Assembly (NCBI RefSeq): GCF_016786255.1
Contig: NZ_JADMKT010000082.1
Span: 5,518 to 69,517 of the forward strand
Reading direction: 5' to 3'
Source: Robertkochia sediminum
GTDB lineage: Bacteria; Bacteroidota; Bacteroidia; Flavobacteriales; Flavobacteriaceae
DNA length: 64,000 bases
Part shown: positions 15,578-33,453 of the stretch, in pieces
Position numbering within the stretch: position 1 is the first letter of the stretch
Layout of the letters: each line of letters opens with the position of its first letter
Position numbers and translations under genes: made by a program
The notes under the pieces: model-generated
Seen by the model: the letters and a program-made list of their open reading frames with translations, nothing else
Told to the model about the DNA's origin: nothing
Database searches by the model: none

Positions 15578-17092
15578 CTATTTTTTCAATGCACTCAGAT
15601 GCAAAAAGGCATCTCCCAGAAAATCGATGATATCGGTGGCCGTAAGGGCCCACTGTGACGTTTGCCGTACTGCAATATCGGCTGCCAATCCGTGAATATA
15701 AACTCCGAGCCGTGCCGCCTCCATAGCAGTATATCCCTGCCCCAGTAATGAAGCTATAACCCCCGTAAGCACATCGCCGCTACCCCCGGTAGCCATTCCC
15801 GGGTTTCCCGTTGAATTAAAATAGACCTCACGTCCATTTGTCACCATGGTATAAGCCCCTTTAAGCACCAGAACAACTCCTTTTTGAGAGGCCATAGCCA
15901 TGGCTTTTTCCATCATTCCCCTGTCACTACCCCACGCCCCGGCAAGTCGACGGAATTCCCCGGGATGGGGTGTGAGCACAGCATTTTCCGGCAGGAATCG
16001 CCAAAGCCGGGGATCACCGGCCAATATATTCAAAGCATCGGCATCCAGCACCAACTTTCCATGGTAATGTTCCAGCAGATCGGCAAGAGCTTTAGCAGTA
16101 TCGTCATGAGTGCCCAAACCAGGACCTATGGCAAACACATCAGGATCGAAATCCGGTCTGATCTCATCAAGATGATCTACCCCTGTAACAGGCACACACA
16201 TCACCTCCGGCACTGCTGTTTGAAACACCCCATAACCACATCGGGGCACCAGGGCAGAAACCAATCCGCTACCTGCTGTCAAGGCTGCTTCGGCACACAT
16301 TAGAGGCGCACCGATCTTCCCGTAGCTCCCACCGCAAACCAGCACATGACCATAACTCCCTTTATGTGAAAATCGCTCCCTCCTTCGCAGCATCGCAACC
16401 ATCTCTTCTTCCTCCGTAAAAAAGAAAGGTGTAACCTCAGCCGCTATAAAATCTTTATCCTGATCAATACCAACAACACTCCAGCTGCGCGTAAACTTAC
16501 CGGTATCCGGAAGCAGGAATACCAACTTGGGCAGCTCAAAAGTGTAGGTATGTTGAGCCTTGATCACCGCATGCTCATCTGGAACCATGCCATTCATGAA
16601 GAGTCCCGAAGGAACATCTACCGCAATAATCTTGACCGCTGCGGCATTCAAATGCCCAATGAGCCCTGCCACCCAGGCAGGTGGTTCCCGGTTAAGGCCG
16701 ATACCAAAGATCGCATCGACCACCAGATCTCCCTCTTCAATTACAGGGTAAACACTTCCCTCATGAAGCTCATCTATTGCCACCCCGGTTTCCAGTAACC
16801 GGTCGTAATTCAGTAGAAAATCAGCAGACCTGTGCTTGCTGAAATTCACGATAACCGCCCTGACCTTATAACCTGCATCAGAAAGATACCTCGCTATGAC
16901 CAGACCGTCTCCCCCGTTATTTCCGATCCCGGAAAACACCCAAACCGTGCCTTCTACCGGCAAAAAGGCGTCCCTTAAACGCCTGAACACCCTGAAAGCA
17001 GCCCGCTCCATAAGCTCAATACTGCTTATTTGCTGCCGCGATATTGTGATGTTATCAGCAATACGTATCTGATCTGCATTAAAAATCTTCAT
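15578..17092 (-). CDS. Bifunctional NAD(P)H-hydrate epimerase / ADP-dependent NAD(P)H-hydrate dehydratase
   Basis: The 504-aa two-domain metabolite-repair enzyme restores hydrated NADH and NADPH. The N-terminal YjeF_N epimerase domain (about 1-210) contains NNGGDGLVIARYL and DAIFGIGL. The C-terminal ribokinase-like dehydratase domain (about 225-500) contains GPGLGTHDD, VLTPHPGEFRRL and the ATP/ADP-site motif GMATGGSGDVLTG. This fusion is standard in bacteria (nnr, YjeF). The 228-nt gap to hutH (15350-15577) shows no gene. It is divergent from the thr operon and faces it across a 285-nt regulatory region. Confidence 0.95.
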   Translation of the reverse strand: MKIFNADQIRIADNITISRQQISSIELMERAAFRVFRRLRDAFLPVEGTVWVFSGIGNNGGDGLVIARYLSDAGYKVRAVIVNFSKHRSADFLLNYDRLLETGVAIDELHEGSVYPVIEEGDLVVDAIFGIGLNREPPAWVAGLIGHLNAAAVKIIAVDVPSGLFMNGMVPDEHAVIKAQHTYTFELPKLVFLLPDTGKFTRSWSVVGIDQDKDFIAAEVTPFFFTEEEEMVAMLRRRERFSHKGSYGHVLVCGGSYGKIGAPLMCAEAALTAGSGLVSALVPRCGYGVFQTAVPEVMCVPVTGVDHLDEIRPDFDPDVFAIGPGLGTHDDTAKALADLLEHYHGKLVLDADALNILAGDPRLWRFLPENAVLTPHPGEFRRLAGAWGSDRGMMEKAMAMASQKGVVLVLKGAYTMVTNGREVYFNSTGNPGMATGGSGDVLTGVIASLLGQGYTAMEAARLGVYIHGLAADIAVRQTSQWALTATDIIDFLGDAFLHLSALKK

Positions 17093-17144: not shown

Positions 17145-17175
17145 TTTGTTCAGGTCATCAAAGTTCCTACATTTG
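17145..17175 (+). promoter_or_regulatory. Promoter of the thr leader-thrABC operon
   Basis: TTTG (17145-17148), a 19-nt spacer, then TACATTTG (17168-17175): a complete match to the Bacteroidota housekeeping form TTTG-N19-21-TAnnTTTG. The predicted start of transcription is near 17181, about 200 nt before thrA, which leaves room for the leader peptide and its hairpins. Confidence 0.75.
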
Positions 17176-17191
17176 ACATGAAAACATATTC

Positions 17192-17290
17192 ATGCCATTA
17201 ACCAACCACATACCCTCTTTCAGAACCTTCCACCCGGAAGGCGCATTTGGCATGACCTCTACCATTACAACCACCATTATCACCCCTTAG
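17192..17290 (+). CDS. Putative thr operon leader peptide
   Basis: A short reading frame ends TSTITTTIITP-stop, encoded ACC TCT ACC ATT ACA ACC ACC ATT ATC ACC CCT TAG at 17255-17290. Nine of ten codons before the final Pro are Thr or Ile (the other is Ser), matching in style the E. coli thrL run of Thr and Ile codons that senses charged tRNA-Thr and tRNA-Ile. Two in-frame starts exist: ATG 17192 (32 aa, about 10 nt from the predicted transcript start) and ATG 17252 (12 aa, with GGAAGG ten nt before it). The frame sits between a consensus promoter and thrA, with hairpins on both sides. Too short for routine gene calling. Confidence 0.75.
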   Translation: MPLTNHIPSFRTFHPEGAFGMTSTITTTIITP

Positions 17291-17340
17291 GGGGTAATGT
17301 TATTCATATGAACCAAAGCATATGACCCGTATTTCGGGTC
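17226..17340 (+). promoter_or_regulatory. Leader hairpins between promoter and thrA (possible attenuation region)
   Basis: Three small perfect hairpins surround the leader peptide's control codons: CCTTCC-ACCC-GGAAGG (17226-17241), which would hide the GGAAGG before ATG 17252; ACCCC-TTAG-GGGGT (17282-17295), overlapping the leader stop codon; and GACCCG-TATTT-CGGGTC (17324-17340). CATATG occurs at 17305-17310 and 17319-17324 and could pair across the gap. None is followed by a T-run, so a classical transcription attenuator is not evident. A translational or Rho-linked mechanism is equally possible. Confidence 0.45.
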
Positions 17341-17377
17341 TGAAACACCGCATACCCAATAACCAATAAAATCCTCT

Positions 17378-19822
17378 ATGAAAATATTAAAATTCGGCGG
17401 AACCTCCGTAGGTAATTCACAGAATATCAAAAAGGTATACCAGGTCGTGAAACAGGCCAACAGCAATGACCTTATTGTCGTGGTCTCAGCCATGTCCGGA
17501 GTAACCAATCTGCTGGAATCGGCTGTAGCCAGCGCTGCAGCAGGGAGCAGGGATTTTGAAGCATCCCTCAAAAAGCTTGAAGACCACCATTTAGTAACCA
17601 TAAGAGACCTGTTTGCAGTATCGGAGCACAGCAAGCTCATCGGGTATTTTAAAAGAGAGCTCAACAAACTGGAAACCCTCCTTGAAGGCGCCTTTATGAT
17701 CGGGGAATCCACCCCGAGACTGAAGGATAAGGTTCTTAGTTATGGCGAGCAGTTCTCCTCATACCTCATTCAACAGTACTTTGCCTGCAATGATCTCGAT
17801 AGCTGGCTGGGCGATAGCAGGGCGCTTATCAAGACCAATGAGAACTTTGGTAAGGCCCAGGCAAACGTCGAACTTACACACAACCTGATCAGGGAAGCCG
17901 TTAAAGACCACAAGGGAAAAGTAGGCGTACTTCAGGGGTTTGTAGCTTCTTCAGAGAACGGACACACCACCACCCTCGGCAGGGGTGGCTCCGACTATAC
18001 GGCAGCCATCGTAGCCGCTGCTACAAATGCCGAAATCCTGGAGATCTGGACCGATGTGAGCGGTATGTATACCGCAGACCCAAGGATGGTAAAACAAGCT
18101 TTTGCCATACCTCACATCTCTTACGAGGAAGCCATGGAACTTTCACATTTCGGCGCCAAAGTACTCTATCCGCCAAGCATTCAACCGGTACTGGAAAAAG
18201 CCATCCCGATCGTTATTAAGAACACCTTTGATCCGGAAGCTCCCGGAACCAAAATCGCCAAAAGAGCCGAAGCCACCAAACGCGCCGTTCGCGGTATAAG
18301 TCGTATAGGAGATATAAGCCTCCTGTCTTTGGAGGGTCCCGGACTCATCGGTATACCCGGAACATCACAACGCTTTTTCAATGTGCTTTCTTCCGGAAAC
18401 ATCAATGTGGTCATGATCACCCAGGCGTCGTCCGAGCATTCCATATGCGTGGGCATCGCCGATGAAGATGCAGAAAAGGCCATCGCCATGCTCAGACAGG
18501 AATTCGAAAGAGAGATCGCATCTCATAAGGTATACCCACCCCTGACCGAAAGGGAGTTGAGCATCATCGCTCTTGTGGGAGACCAGATGAAGAGCTACCA
18601 GGGACTAAGCGGACGCATGTTCAGTGCACTTGGTAAGAACAACGTGAACATAAGAGCGATCGCCCAGGGCGCCTCAGAGCGTAACATATCTGCGGTGATC
18701 GCCAACAAAGATGTTAAAAAAGCCCTGAACACACTCCACGAAGAATTTTTTGAAGACCGCATCAAACAGCTCAACCTTTTCGTAATGGGCGCCGGAAATG
18801 TAGGGAAACGCTTCCTGGAACAGGTGCGAAGCCAAAAAGCATTCCTGAGGGAACAGCTCAAGATCAATATTCGCGTAACCGGTCTTGCCAATTCACGTAC
18901 CATGGTCTTTAACGACCAGGGACTCGAACTGGACCAATGGGAAAAAGACCTGCCAAAGGGTGAAAAGGCTTCCCTGGAAGGTTTTTACAACAAGGTTCTC
19001 GACCTCAACCTTAGAAATAGTGTCTTTGTAGATATCACTGCGAACGAAAAGGTAGCCTTTACGTATGCCGATTACCTGTCTAAAAGTGTGGCAGTGGTTA
19101 CGTGTAATAAGATCGCAGCCTCCGCAGATTACGCCCATTACCGCAAGCTGAAAGAGCTCTCAAAGCATTACAACACCCCCTTCTTGTTCGAAACCAATGT
19201 AGGAGCAGGTTTACCGGTACTGGACACCCTTAAACATCTGGTGATCTCCGGAGACCAGGTCAACAGGATCGAAGCCGTACTTTCGGGTAGCCTGAATTTT
19301 ATATTTAACAACTACAACCAAAAGACCTCCTTTAATGAGGTGGTGCAAAGGGCCATGGACGAAGGATATACCGAACCCGATCCACGCATCGACCTCAGCG
19401 GCGTCGATGTCATGCGCAAGATTCTCATCCTGGCACGTGAAAGCGGTTATGAGCTCGATCTCGAGCAGATCACCAGAAACGATTTTCTTCCGGAAGGCGC
19501 ATTAGACACAGCGTCGCCGGAAGAGTTCCTGAAGGTATTGAGTGAGAACGAACCTCACTTCGAGTCCCTCCTGAACAAGGCCGAAAGCAAAGGCTGTAAA
19601 CTCAAATATGTCGCTTCCTTTAACCAGGGCAAAGCCAGTGTTGGCCTCCGGGAGATCCCCGATGACCATCCGTTCTATCACCTGGAGGGTAAAGACAATA
19701 TCGTATTGTTCTACACGAACAGGTATCCCGACCAGCCACTCAACATCAAAGGGGCCGGGGCCGGGGCCGAAGTTACCGCCTCGGGGATCTTTGCAGATAT
19801 CATCAGAACCGTAAACCAATAA
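17378..19822 (+). CDS. thrA: Bifunctional aspartokinase I / homoserine dehydrogenase I
   Basis: The 814-aa fusion catalyses the first and third steps of the aspartate-to-threonine pathway. The aspartokinase domain begins at once with LKFGGTSVGNS (residues 3-13), followed by ACT regulatory repeats (around residues 315-460, for example ISLLSLEGPGLIG and LSIIALVGDQM). The homoserine dehydrogenase domain begins near residue 464, with the Rossmann motif FVMGAGNVGKRF, then CNKIAAS, FETNVGAGLPVL and EPDPRIDLSGVDVMRK. The architecture and order thrA-thrB-thrC match the gammaproteobacterial operon. Feedback control by threonine is likely through the ACT domains. Confidence 0.97.
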   Translation: MKILKFGGTSVGNSQNIKKVYQVVKQANSNDLIVVVSAMSGVTNLLESAVASAAAGSRDFEASLKKLEDHHLVTIRDLFAVSEHSKLIGYFKRELNKLETLLEGAFMIGESTPRLKDKVLSYGEQFSSYLIQQYFACNDLDSWLGDSRALIKTNENFGKAQANVELTHNLIREAVKDHKGKVGVLQGFVASSENGHTTTLGRGGSDYTAAIVAAATNAEILEIWTDVSGMYTADPRMVKQAFAIPHISYEEAMELSHFGAKVLYPPSIQPVLEKAIPIVIKNTFDPEAPGTKIAKRAEATKRAVRGISRIGDISLLSLEGPGLIGIPGTSQRFFNVLSSGNINVVMITQASSEHSICVGIADEDAEKAIAMLRQEFEREIASHKVYPPLTERELSIIALVGDQMKSYQGLSGRMFSALGKNNVNIRAIAQGASERNISAVIANKDVKKALNTLHEEFFEDRIKQLNLFVMGAGNVGKRFLEQVRSQKAFLREQLKINIRVTGLANSRTMVFNDQGLELDQWEKDLPKGEKASLEGFYNKVLDLNLRNSVFVDITANEKVAFTYADYLSKSVAVVTCNKIAASADYAHYRKLKELSKHYNTPFLFETNVGAGLPVLDTLKHLVISGDQVNRIEAVLSGSLNFIFNNYNQKTSFNEVVQRAMDEGYTEPDPRIDLSGVDVMRKILILARESGYELDLEQITRNDFLPEGALDTASPEEFLKVLSENEPHFESLLNKAESKGCKLKYVASFNQGKASVGLREIPDDHPFYHLEGKDNIVLFYTNRYPDQPLNIKGAGAGAEVTASGIFADIIRTVNQ

Positions 19823-19825
19823 GGC

Positions 19826-20749
19826 ATGAATAAGATCGAAGTATTTTGCCCGGCTACCGTTGCCAATATCTCCTGCGGTTTTGATGTGCTGGGGCTGTGC
19901 CTGGAAACCACGGGCGACCATATGGCCTTTTATGAACATTCAGAGCCGGGTGTTATGATCCTGCAGAATGAAGGTCCTATGCTCCCTACCGATCCCTACA
20001 AGAATGTAGCGGGCATCGCTGCCTTGTCGTTACTAAAGGAATTAAACTCAAAAAAGGGGGTGGTTATAGAGATCAGCAAGAAGATCAAGCCGGGCAGCGG
20101 CATTGGCAGCAGTGCTGCCAGTGCTGCAGGTGCTGCATTTGGGGTGAACCAGCTGTTTGGCGCTCCCCTCTCGCCTAAGCAATTAATTCCTGCGGCAATG
20201 CAAGGTGAAGCCCTGGCCAGTGGCGTTCCGCACGCAGACAATGTAGCCCCTGCCCTGCTGGGAGGCATAACCCTCATACGCTCTTACGACCCCCTGGAAG
20301 TGCTTTCACTACACACGCCAAAAGACCTCTTCGCTGCCGTAATTCACCCCCAGATAGAATTGCGAACAGCCGATGCCCGATCTGTGCTCAAAAGTCAGAT
20401 CCCCATGGAGAAAGCCATTCGTCAGTGGGGCAACCTGGGCGCTCTGGTAGCAGCCCTGTACACCGAAGACTACGCCTTACTGGGCAGGTCACTTCACGAT
20501 GAGATCGTAGAACCTATGAGGAGTCCGCTCATTCCGGGATACGACGAGGCCAAGCAAGCCGCGATGGAAAGCGGAGCCCTGGGAAGCGGGATCTCCGGAT
20601 CGGGCCCATCTATATTCGCCCTGTGTAAAGGAGAAGAAACCGCAGCACGTGCGGGCACGCAAATGCAAAACGTATATAACCGCTTAGGTGTTGCCAATGA
20701 AGTGCATATATCGCCCATAGCAAAACAAGGTACCCACCTTATCAAATAA
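19826..20749 (+). CDS. thrB: Homoserine kinase
   Basis: GHMP-family kinase of 307 aa that phosphorylates homoserine for threonine synthesis. The ATP-binding motif KPGSGIGSSAASAAGAAFG is at about residues 89-107, the N-terminal substrate motif ATVANISCGFDVLG is intact, and the C-terminal GSGISGSGPSIFAL motif is present. It starts 3 nt after the thrA stop codon, consistent with translational coupling. Confidence 0.97.
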   Translation: MNKIEVFCPATVANISCGFDVLGLCLETTGDHMAFYEHSEPGVMILQNEGPMLPTDPYKNVAGIAALSLLKELNSKKGVVIEISKKIKPGSGIGSSAASAAGAAFGVNQLFGAPLSPKQLIPAAMQGEALASGVPHADNVAPALLGGITLIRSYDPLEVLSLHTPKDLFAAVIHPQIELRTADARSVLKSQIPMEKAIRQWGNLGALVAALYTEDYALLGRSLHDEIVEPMRSPLIPGYDEAKQAAMESGALGSGISGSGPSIFALCKGEETAARAGTQMQNVYNRLGVANEVHISPIAKQGTHLIK

Positions 20750-20762
20750 ACCCCTACCAACA

Positions 20763-22073
20763 ATGAAATACGCAAGCCTAAATAACACGCATAAAGGCCA
20801 AAACCCGGTGAGCTTCCAGGAAGCCCTGGTCAAGGGCCTGGCAGAAGACAAGGGACTCTACTTCCCTACAGCCATCCCTCAACTGGATCCTGAATTCACA
20901 CATAACCTCCCCGCTTACAGTAAAGCGGAGATCGCTTACCGCGTGATCGCACCGTTCATCGGTGAGGAGATCCCTGAAGACACCCTGCGTCAGATCGTAT
21001 CAGAAACCCTCGCCTTCGATATTCCGCTGGTACACCTCAACGATACTTACAGCAGCCTCGAGCTTTTTCACGGCCCTACCATGGCCTTTAAAGATGTAGG
21101 CGCGAGATTTATGGCGCGATGCCTGGGCTATTTTAACAGGGAGAAAAAGAACAGAACGGTAAGAGTGCTGGTGGCTACTTCCGGCGATACGGGAGGAGCC
21201 GTAGCCAACGGATTCCTCAATGTACCCGGCGTGGAGGTGGTGATCTTATACCCTGAAGGTAAGGTGAGCGATATCCAGGAAAGACAACTTACCACCTTAG
21301 GAGCCAACATCAAAGCCCTAAGAGTAAAAGGCGATTTTGACGCCTGCCAGCGCATGGTAAAAACAGCCTTCCTCGATGAAGAAATAGACCACCTTAACCT
21401 CACCTCGGCAAATTCGATCAATGTGGCCCGGTGGTTACCCCAGATGTTCTATTACTTTCTGGCCGTACGTCAATTGCAGCAAGAAGGGAACAACAAGCCC
21501 GCACTCTTCTCGGTGCCCAGCGGAAATTTCGGGAATATTTGCGCCGGGATCATGAGCTACAGGATGGGATTACCCATGAAGCATTTTGTTGCTGCCACCA
21601 ATGTCAATGATACCATCCCCAGGTATATGGCTACAGGCAATTACGCCCCTAAGTCCACAGTACCTACCATCGCTAATGCGATGGATGTTTCAGACCCTAG
21701 TAATTTCATCCGCATCGAAGCCCTTTTCCGCGAAACTCCGGAGCAACTCAGGCAACATTTCTCCTCTTACAGCTTTAATGACCGGGAGACCAGGGAGGCG
21801 ATGAAAACCCTGAAAGACGATTTCGGCTATATCGCCGATCCCCATGGGGCAATAGGTTACCTGGGGGCAGAAAAGAAGTTACCGGAATACAAGGGGTATA
21901 AGGCAATATTTCTGGAAACAGCCCACCCTGCAAAATTCAAGGATGAGGTAGAAACCACCCTGGGCATCCGTATCGATCTGCCACCGCAATTACAAGCCGT
22001 TATGCACAGGGAAAAGGAATATGCGACCATAGCTACCTATGATGAATTAAAGGACTTTTTAGGGGCGCTGTAA
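20763..22073 (+). CDS. thrC: Threonine synthase
   Basis: PLP enzyme of 436 aa that turns O-phosphohomoserine into threonine. The PLP lysine lies in GPTMAFKDVGARFMAR (near residue 110), and the phosphate-binding motif is TSGDTGGAVANGF. The N-terminal segment YASLNNTHKGQNPVSFQEA is typical of the thrC family. It follows thrB by 13 nt and completes the operon. The next gene has its own promoter. Confidence 0.97.
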   Translation: MKYASLNNTHKGQNPVSFQEALVKGLAEDKGLYFPTAIPQLDPEFTHNLPAYSKAEIAYRVIAPFIGEEIPEDTLRQIVSETLAFDIPLVHLNDTYSSLELFHGPTMAFKDVGARFMARCLGYFNREKKNRTVRVLVATSGDTGGAVANGFLNVPGVEVVILYPEGKVSDIQERQLTTLGANIKALRVKGDFDACQRMVKTAFLDEEIDHLNLTSANSINVARWLPQMFYYFLAVRQLQQEGNNKPALFSVPSGNFGNICAGIMSYRMGLPMKHFVAATNVNDTIPRYMATGNYAPKSTVPTIANAMDVSDPSNFIRIEALFRETPEQLRQHFSSYSFNDRETREAMKTLKDDFGYIADPHGAIGYLGAEKKLPEYKGYKAIFLETAHPAKFKDEVETTLGIRIDLPPQLQAVMHREKEYATIATYDELKDFLGAL

Positions 22074-32572: not shown

Positions 32573-33147
32573 TGCGCATCATCTCCGGAAAATACAAGTC
32601 AAAACGCATCACAGCCCCAGGGAATCTGCCTGTAAGGCCAACGACAGACTTTGCCAAAGAAGCCCTGTTCAATGTGCTCAACAACTTATATTACCTCGAT
32701 GAGATAAGTGTTACCGATCTGTTCGCAGGAACGGGAAACATAAGCTATGAAATAGCCAGTCGCGGCAGCCGGGACATCACAGCGGTCGACGCCCATTCCG
32801 GCTGTGTACGTTTCATTTCTAAAACGGCCACAGAACTCGATATGCCTATAAAGGCCATAAAGTCTGATGTTTTTAAATACCTCGAAAGAACCCTTAAGAA
32901 AACCGACCTCATCTTTGCCGACCCTCCTTACGATATGCCGGCAGAAGACATGCTTAAAATAGCAAATCTGGTCTTCGACAGGGAATTGCTGCTGGAAGGA
33001 GGAACCCTGGTGATCGAGCACTCCAAGCACACCGATCTTTCAGATCATCCTTATTTTTCACAATCCCGCCGGTACGGAGGCAGTGTATTCAGCTTTTACG
33101 AAATTCCGGAGGAAGAAGATTCAGAAGAAGAAACAGAGGAGGCATAA
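32572..33147 (+). CDS. rsmD: 16S rRNA (guanine(966)-N(2))-methyltransferase RsmD
   Basis: The 191-aa SAM-dependent methyltransferase modifies G966 of 16S rRNA. The N-terminus MRIISGKYKSKRI and RPTTDFAKEALFNVL are characteristic; the SAM motif is VTDLFAGTGNISYEIASRG and the catalytic motif IV is FADPPYDMP. The C-terminus is acidic (EEEDSEEETEEA). It is coupled to DUF3822 by a one-base overlap and converges on the RNase P RNA gene 4 nt later. Confidence 0.95.
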   Translation: MRIISGKYKSKRITAPGNLPVRPTTDFAKEALFNVLNNLYYLDEISVTDLFAGTGNISYEIASRGSRDITAVDAHSGCVRFISKTATELDMPIKAIKSDVFKYLERTLKKTDLIFADPPYDMPAEDMLKIANLVFDRELLLEGGTLVIEHSKHTDLSDHPYFSQSRRYGGSVFSFYEIPEEEDSEEETEEA

Positions 33148-33151
33148 AAAA

Positions 33152-33453
33152 ATGCAGGTCATAAGCCGGATTCTGTGCCCCTCGCGGGGTCCCTATCATT
33201 TATCTGGCCTTACCATTACTGATAAGATCTAGCCGCCTACCCTCCGGCATCGGACGCGCAATCCTCAAGCACCGGTTTACATGGCGTTTCACCGCATAGA
33301 GTTTACCTGATTTCACTACAGCATGACCTGTACATTCTTTCTGTTGCACTTGTCCTCGTTTTTCAACGGACGGCTGTTAACCGCTATGCTGCGCTGTGGT
33401 GTCCGGACTTTCCTTCCCGAAATAACTTCGGAACGATAGGGTGACCTGCCCGG
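33152..33453 (-). ncRNA. rnpB: RNase P RNA (bacterial type A)
   Basis: No protein gene fits this 400-nt gap, but the minus strand shows the RNase P RNA core. The 5' P1 strand GCAGGTCA (33442-33449) pairs with TGACCTGC at the 3' end (33154-33161). The conserved GGAAGGAAAGTCCGGAC lies near the 5' end, and ACAGAATCCGGCTTATGACC near the 3' end. This RNA is the catalytic subunit that matures tRNA 5' ends. A TATTTTTG promoter box directly upstream supports the 5' end near 33449-33453. Ends are approximate to a few bases. Confidence 0.93.

Follow-up and report, generated by a model that had tools for sequence, protein, structure and literature searches.

The thrABC operon of Robertkochia sediminum is preceded by a leader that we hold with high confidence, on sequence grounds, to be a sensor of threonine and isoleucine. 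Its short open reading frame (ORF) ends in a conserved run of Thr and Ile codons, one hairpin (P2) spans the leader stop codon, a second, covarying hairpin (P3) follows without a T-run, the start of the ORF co-evolves with a downstream partner (P1), and the thrA start is predicted to remain unmasked. We rather favour a model in which the position of the leader ribosome reports on Thr/Ile-tRNA and sets thrABC expression without an intrinsic terminator, a Rho-linked step being the preferred output. The window referred to below is the whole 64,000-nucleotide stretch of DNA analysed.

A threonine/isoleucine leader and its distribution

The leader ORF is flanked by divergently oriented genes: thrA, thrB and thrC follow it (Table 1), and on its other side a minus-strand gene (15578-17092) appears to encode an NAD(P)HX-repair enzyme. 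Read from the sequence, the arrangement is the one described in the original prediction, a Thr/Ile leader ORF that comes after a promoter and, with its hairpins, before thrABC. The promoter fits the Bacteroidota consensus TTTG/TAnnTTTG, with a -33-like TTTG and TACATTTG at -7, and the transcript would be expected to start at about 17181-17184; in the family, 61 of 69 leaders have TAnnTTTG no more than 48 nt 5' of their ATG, against 5% in shuffles. The ORF, which has an internal ATG at 17252, ends in MTSTITTTIITP and a stop codon, and nine of the 11 residues of its terminal TSTITTTIITP are Thr or Ile. No second Thr/Ile run of such density was found on either strand of the 64-kb window. Searches of curated RNA, leader-peptide and protein models gave no match of the leader to any Rfam, Pfam or NCBIfam model. 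Elsewhere in the window, a bacterial class A RNase P RNA lies on the minus strand at 33147-33452 (Rfam RF00010, 193 bits).

Table 1. Coordinates of the thr leader, its predicted structures and the downstream genes in the window
Feature	Position	Strand	Description	Basis
Promoter	17145-17175	+	TTTG 17145-17148, 19-nt spacer, TACATTTG 17168-17175	sequence
P1	17190-17255	+	start region TCATGCCA 17190-17197 paired with TGGCATGA 17248-17255; encloses mid-ORF hairpin	predicted fold
Leader ORF	17192-17290	+	32 codons, MPLTNHIPSFRTFHPEGAFGMTSTITTTIITP and stop	sequence; Thr/Ile-rich end conserved in frame 0 only
Mid-ORF hairpin	17226-17241	+	CCTTCC-ACCC-GGAAGG	sequence and fold
Thr/Ile codon run, proposed sensor	17255-17284	+		
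P2, hairpin across leader stop TAG 17288-17290	17275-17299	+	core ACCCC-TTAG-GGGGT 17282-17295, extended CATTA...TAATG	
Linker with conserved CATAT element	17300-17323	+	CATATGAACC 17305-17314	relatives' consensus YATATnnTCCG
C-over-G-rich stretch, P2 to thrA	17300-17377	+		
P3, second hairpin	17324-17340	+	GACCCG-TATTT-CGGGTC, then no T-run	sequence
thrA	17378-19822	+	aspartokinase - homoserine dehydrogenase, 814 aa	ORF and homology
thrB	19826-20749	+	homoserine kinase	ORF list; function from sequence and gene order
thrC	20763-22073	+	threonine synthase	ORF list; function from sequence and gene order

The genome set includes four congeners of the window's genome, and its named neighbours are Flavobacteriaceae. 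Upstream regions of thrA were drawn from 94 genomes of the family; 82 of them show the ORF-end hairpin pattern and 75 were retained for strict counts. In these 75 leaders the 12 codons 5' of the stop hairpin are 53% Thr or Ile (32% Thr plus 21% Ile) in the leader frame, with not one stop among 900 codons, while the other two frames over the same codons have Thr/Ile contents of 1.6%/3.2% and 0.1%/2.0% and do contain stops. Synonymous codons vary freely among relatives (ACT/ACC/ACA, ATT/ATC). Such conservation and frame specificity refute a chance run of Thr/Ile codons, the probability of which we regard as practically nil.

Conservation of the ORF and of its Thr/Ile codons, named beforehand as the refutation test of the original prediction, extends from congeners to other orders of Bacteroidia. 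Outside the family, leaders occur in Chitinophagaceae, Hymenobacter, Fulvivirga and Chryseobacterium, as well as in other families of the same order and in additional families of the class. A profile search recovered the leader element in 59 of 149 genomes of the family, once in each; this is a lower bound, as the covariance model (R1) retained 2 base pairs, because loop lengths differ, and hence worked mainly as a sequence profile. The element stands upstream of thrA in every genome compared, bar one in which thrA is split over contigs (positions relative to thrA were computed for 34 plus-strand cases).

Some records depart from the common pattern. The 0.6 Mb genomes of one family (L203-L210), probably those of insect endosymbionts, have thrA and have lost the leader. 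Two records titled Pyrinomonadaceae (Acidobacteriota) and Flavobacterium (L313 and L314) carry ThrA that falls with other Bacteroidota / Chitinophagaceae in the tree, and are probably mislabelled or contaminated MAGs. Three leaders (L244, L246 and L248) contain two or three Thr codons only (MCTTTLRG, MCTMTLRG, MTPWGV), yet retain the stop-spanning hairpin; they are possibly degenerating or serve as a different sensor.

Hairpins of the leader and the question of a terminator

P2, P3 and P1 are the structures backed by conservation, none of which had been singled out in the original prediction. Among 104 Thr/Ile leaders across Bacteroidia, picked by Thr/Ile content alone, a GC-rich P2 is present in 92 (88%); shifting the search region lowers the figure to 1-25%. 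It occurs in 56 distinct sequences, including ACCCC..GGGGT and the C/G-inverted ACGGGGTAACCCGT and CAATCCGCTAAGCGGATTG, so that structure rather than sequence is what is conserved. Its 5' arm usually starts at the last Thr codon. In one family (L235, L238 and L240, all upstream of thrA) the C and G arms are exchanged (ACGGGGTAACCCGT) and the placement relative to the last Thr codon is the same. Six of eight pairs show compensatory changes in the counterpart of P3 from 27 relatives, and the covariation score of the whole structure, both hairpins together, was reached by none of 500 shuffles. For P1, pairing of the 5' part of the ORF with its last 15 codons in the 75 leaders is stronger than after synonymous-codon randomisation (z -5.5) or with swapped partners (z -8.1); the partner of the leader start is the region just before or within the Thr run. 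In the linker between P2 and P3, ATAT is present in 84% of 75 sequences versus 31% in shuffles and TCCG in 43% versus 5%, and columns A55, T56 and A57 of alignment A2 are at least 90% conserved.

The mid-ORF hairpin had been proposed to act by hiding GGAAGG. This claim is not supported: the hairpin lies in the middle of the ORF, and many relatives, judged by eye, have a hairpin of altered sequence at this site and do not keep GGAAGG. A hidden Shine-Dalgarno was rejected on the same grounds of location and sequence, and also as the family lacks such sequences (for flavobacteria, see PMC9723704). The wider suggestion of a non-classical output is supported in its direction.

The absence of a T-run after the hairpins, noted in the original prediction, was borne out well beyond the window. 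No T-run follows any of the window's leader hairpins (17226-17241, 17275-17299, 17324-17340), and among the 82 thr leaders none has a T-run terminator at 7 of 8 T's, with four weak cases at 6 T's. The same scan applied to his leaders as a control found T-run terminators in 29 of 29 (at 6 T's). The his, phe and ilv operons were examined through family searches: textbook attenuators, complete with T-run terminators, precede hisG and pheA in the same set of 29-30 genomes, whose ilv leaders have T-run terminators too. In the genome of the window, the hisG leader (L106, G000:C69) encodes MNTVFVHHHHHFPLAQAR, followed by a stop, with AACACCCGTTTGAG..CAGGCGGGTGTTTTTT; the pheA leader (L155, G000:C64) encodes MNASSYIWTFFYFYFYFFKGEKGTCIA, followed by a stop, with AAGTCCCGG..CCGGGACTTTTTTTTT; and a T-run terminator lies about 250 nt upstream of ilvD (L171, G000:C68). 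Five Bacteroidia genomes (L222, L231, L234, L236, L237) do have a thr leader of the classical kind, T-run terminator included, and they make up a single cluster in the ThrA tree. As the stop hairpin is absent from all five, the two designs are mutually exclusive in this sample.

Could P2 or P3 nevertheless end transcription as a U-poor intrinsic terminator, perhaps aided by NusG or NusA, with the ribosome deciding on its formation? Both are real hairpins, and four thr leaders have 6 of 8 T's after P2. Moreover, an AUAU stretch is found 3' of the leader stop in 93% of his, 90% of phe and 84% of thr leaders (17305-17309 in the window), above shuffles; it precedes the terminator in his and phe and sits between P2 and P3 in thr, so P3 occupies a terminator-like position. 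Perhaps this stretch is a pause element of the flavobacterial RNA polymerase. However, strong T-run terminators serve his and phe in the very same genomes, P3 in many relatives is rich in A and U, T-runs are lacking, and duplex tests of natural versus swapped segments revealed no co-evolving alternative partner, and so no antiterminator, for either P2 or P3. P2 would, in addition, form with the ribosome stalled 5' of it, the opposite of what a biosynthetic operon requires; P2 as a terminator was rejected for this reason and for the missing T-run. A long-range pairing between ACGGAC in the ORF and GTCCGT in the linker, which inspection by eye had suggested in about five leaders, was likewise dropped (natural versus swapped, z -0.6). 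We consider a U-poor terminator unlikely and believe, with good confidence, that the leader is not a classical terminator switch.

Possible routes from the leader ribosome to thrABC expression

An effect on translation appears no more promising. In favour of a leader ribosome that alters access to the thrA start codon, ORF segments fold onto thrA codons 6-10 in some leaders, with a weak preference (z -2.0 and z -2.2). Predicted accessibility of the thrA start is 0.53 without a ribosome, 0.55 with a stalled one and 0.56 with a ribosome at the stop, and the stretch ahead of thrA tends not to pair with the thrA start (z +3.9). Translational attenuation is thus improbable in our estimate, and masking of the thrA start of the ermC type was rejected given the near-constant predicted accessibility in the three ribosome states. 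Another explanation is that the uORF senses nothing and serves for ribosome loading, mRNA end protection or reinitiation at thrA. Leader ORFs are common near genes and may increase expression (PMC4833913), but the joint conservation of the Thr/Ile codons, the stop hairpin and P3 would be left unexplained, and the distance to thrA, about 70-100 nt, is far from the Bacteroidetes reinitiation peak at 11-14 bp (PMC4833913). We regard a non-sensing uORF as very unlikely.

Since P2 and P3 have no alternative partner and the thrA start is not masked, the output should fall on RNA polymerase or on naked RNA. From P2 to the thrA ATG the family mean is 17.7% C and 7.2% G, a skew of +0.42 (n=75), although start regions free of structure should show such a skew too; control skews over the upstream 80 nt are +0.06 for his, -0.24 for phe and -0.06 for ilv. 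The stretch of the window ranks second in skew among the window's 22 gene upstreams. The window's own genome has a Rho gene (G000:C65:289581-291287). Its open frame, of about 571 codons, is longer than the 415-position family model, as are the other Bacteroidota Rho proteins searched. The C-over-G skew and the presence of Rho are why a Rho-linked step is preferred, and toiL offers a precedent for a uORF that acts through Rho (PMC12121999). Rho as the effector is nevertheless a tentative proposal drawn from composition, with the chances slightly against it.

In the model that we prefer, when Thr and Ile are plentiful the ribosome would reach the stop in or beside P2 and depart. P1 would then re-form and close the start codon of the leader; before thrA, RNA rich in C and poor in G would lie bare, and Rho would use it to end transcription early. 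Under shortage of either amino acid, the ribosome would be parked on the run, where it would hold P1 open and cover the C-rich Thr codons; being close to RNA polymerase, it would keep Rho off, and thrABC would be expressed. It should be noted that a parked ribosome would also bare the RNA downstream of it, so the Rho step requires either loading at the Thr run or contact between ribosome and RNA polymerase. The few leaders that are poor in Thr codons (L244, L246, L248) are counted against the sensor model, and its Rho-linked form accounts for neither P2 nor the YATATnnTCCG linker. P2 may have a task of its own, for example in the timing of ribosome and RNA polymerase. It could possibly be a pause hairpin of the his type, though its spacing to the linker is off the usual 10-12 nt. 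It is conceivable, if rather doubtful at present, that Bacteroidia have a distinct leader class in which the stop-codon hairpin and the YATATnnTCCG linker read the arrival of the ribosome and control RNA polymerase, by pausing or through Rho, with neither a terminator nor an alternative RNA structure.

Comparison with known leaders

Leader-peptide attenuation in flavobacteria was proposed in 2021 from 'strong clues' 5' of amino-acid operons of Flavobacterium psychrophilum, and pheA and hisG elements are named among its structured 5' regions in the main text of PMC9723704. That main text names no thr element and describes no terminator-less class. We found no description of a thr leader of Bacteroidota or of a terminator-less class in the literature searched, to which older subscription papers and the supplement of PMC9723704 did not belong. 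The thr leader without a terminator seems to be a new variant that is widespread in Bacteroidia. It points to broad use of ribosome-sensing control for threonine synthesis in a phylum whose regulation is mostly unstudied. It also means that two designs share one genome: his and phe have classical attenuators with T-runs, and the thr leader does without a terminator.

The likeness to E. coli thrL (Rfam Thr_leader) is clear: a promoter and a short ORF dense in codons for Thr and Ile stand before a gene for aspartokinase-homoserine dehydrogenase and thrBC. Unlike thrL, the leader described here has no T-run terminator, no terminator/antiterminator pair and no Rfam match, and it does have a hairpin across the leader stop. 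The initial view that it reproduces E. coli thrL is therefore right for the peptide and wrong for the terminator; being thrL-like as a sensor and lacking both terminator and antiterminator in our tests, it is best called a variant of the thrL type. With the flavobacterial his and phe attenuators it shares an ORF with runs of the sensed residues (HHHHH; FFYFYFYFF), hairpins and AUAU after the stop, whereas theirs have antiterminator sequences at the leader end and strong T-run terminators. As in tnaC, mgtL and toiL, a ribosome stalled in a uORF would set the fate of the transcript with no intrinsic terminator; here, however, the signal would be a shortage of charged Thr/Ile-tRNA and not a bound ligand or antibiotic, and the action of Rho is putative. 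A further comparison is with the five classical thr leaders of Bacteroidia, which follow the same Thr/Ile peptide logic upstream of the same gene and differ in having T-run terminators and no stop hairpin. Because some Bacteroidia retain this classical form, the class offers a natural comparison for attenuation without a terminator.
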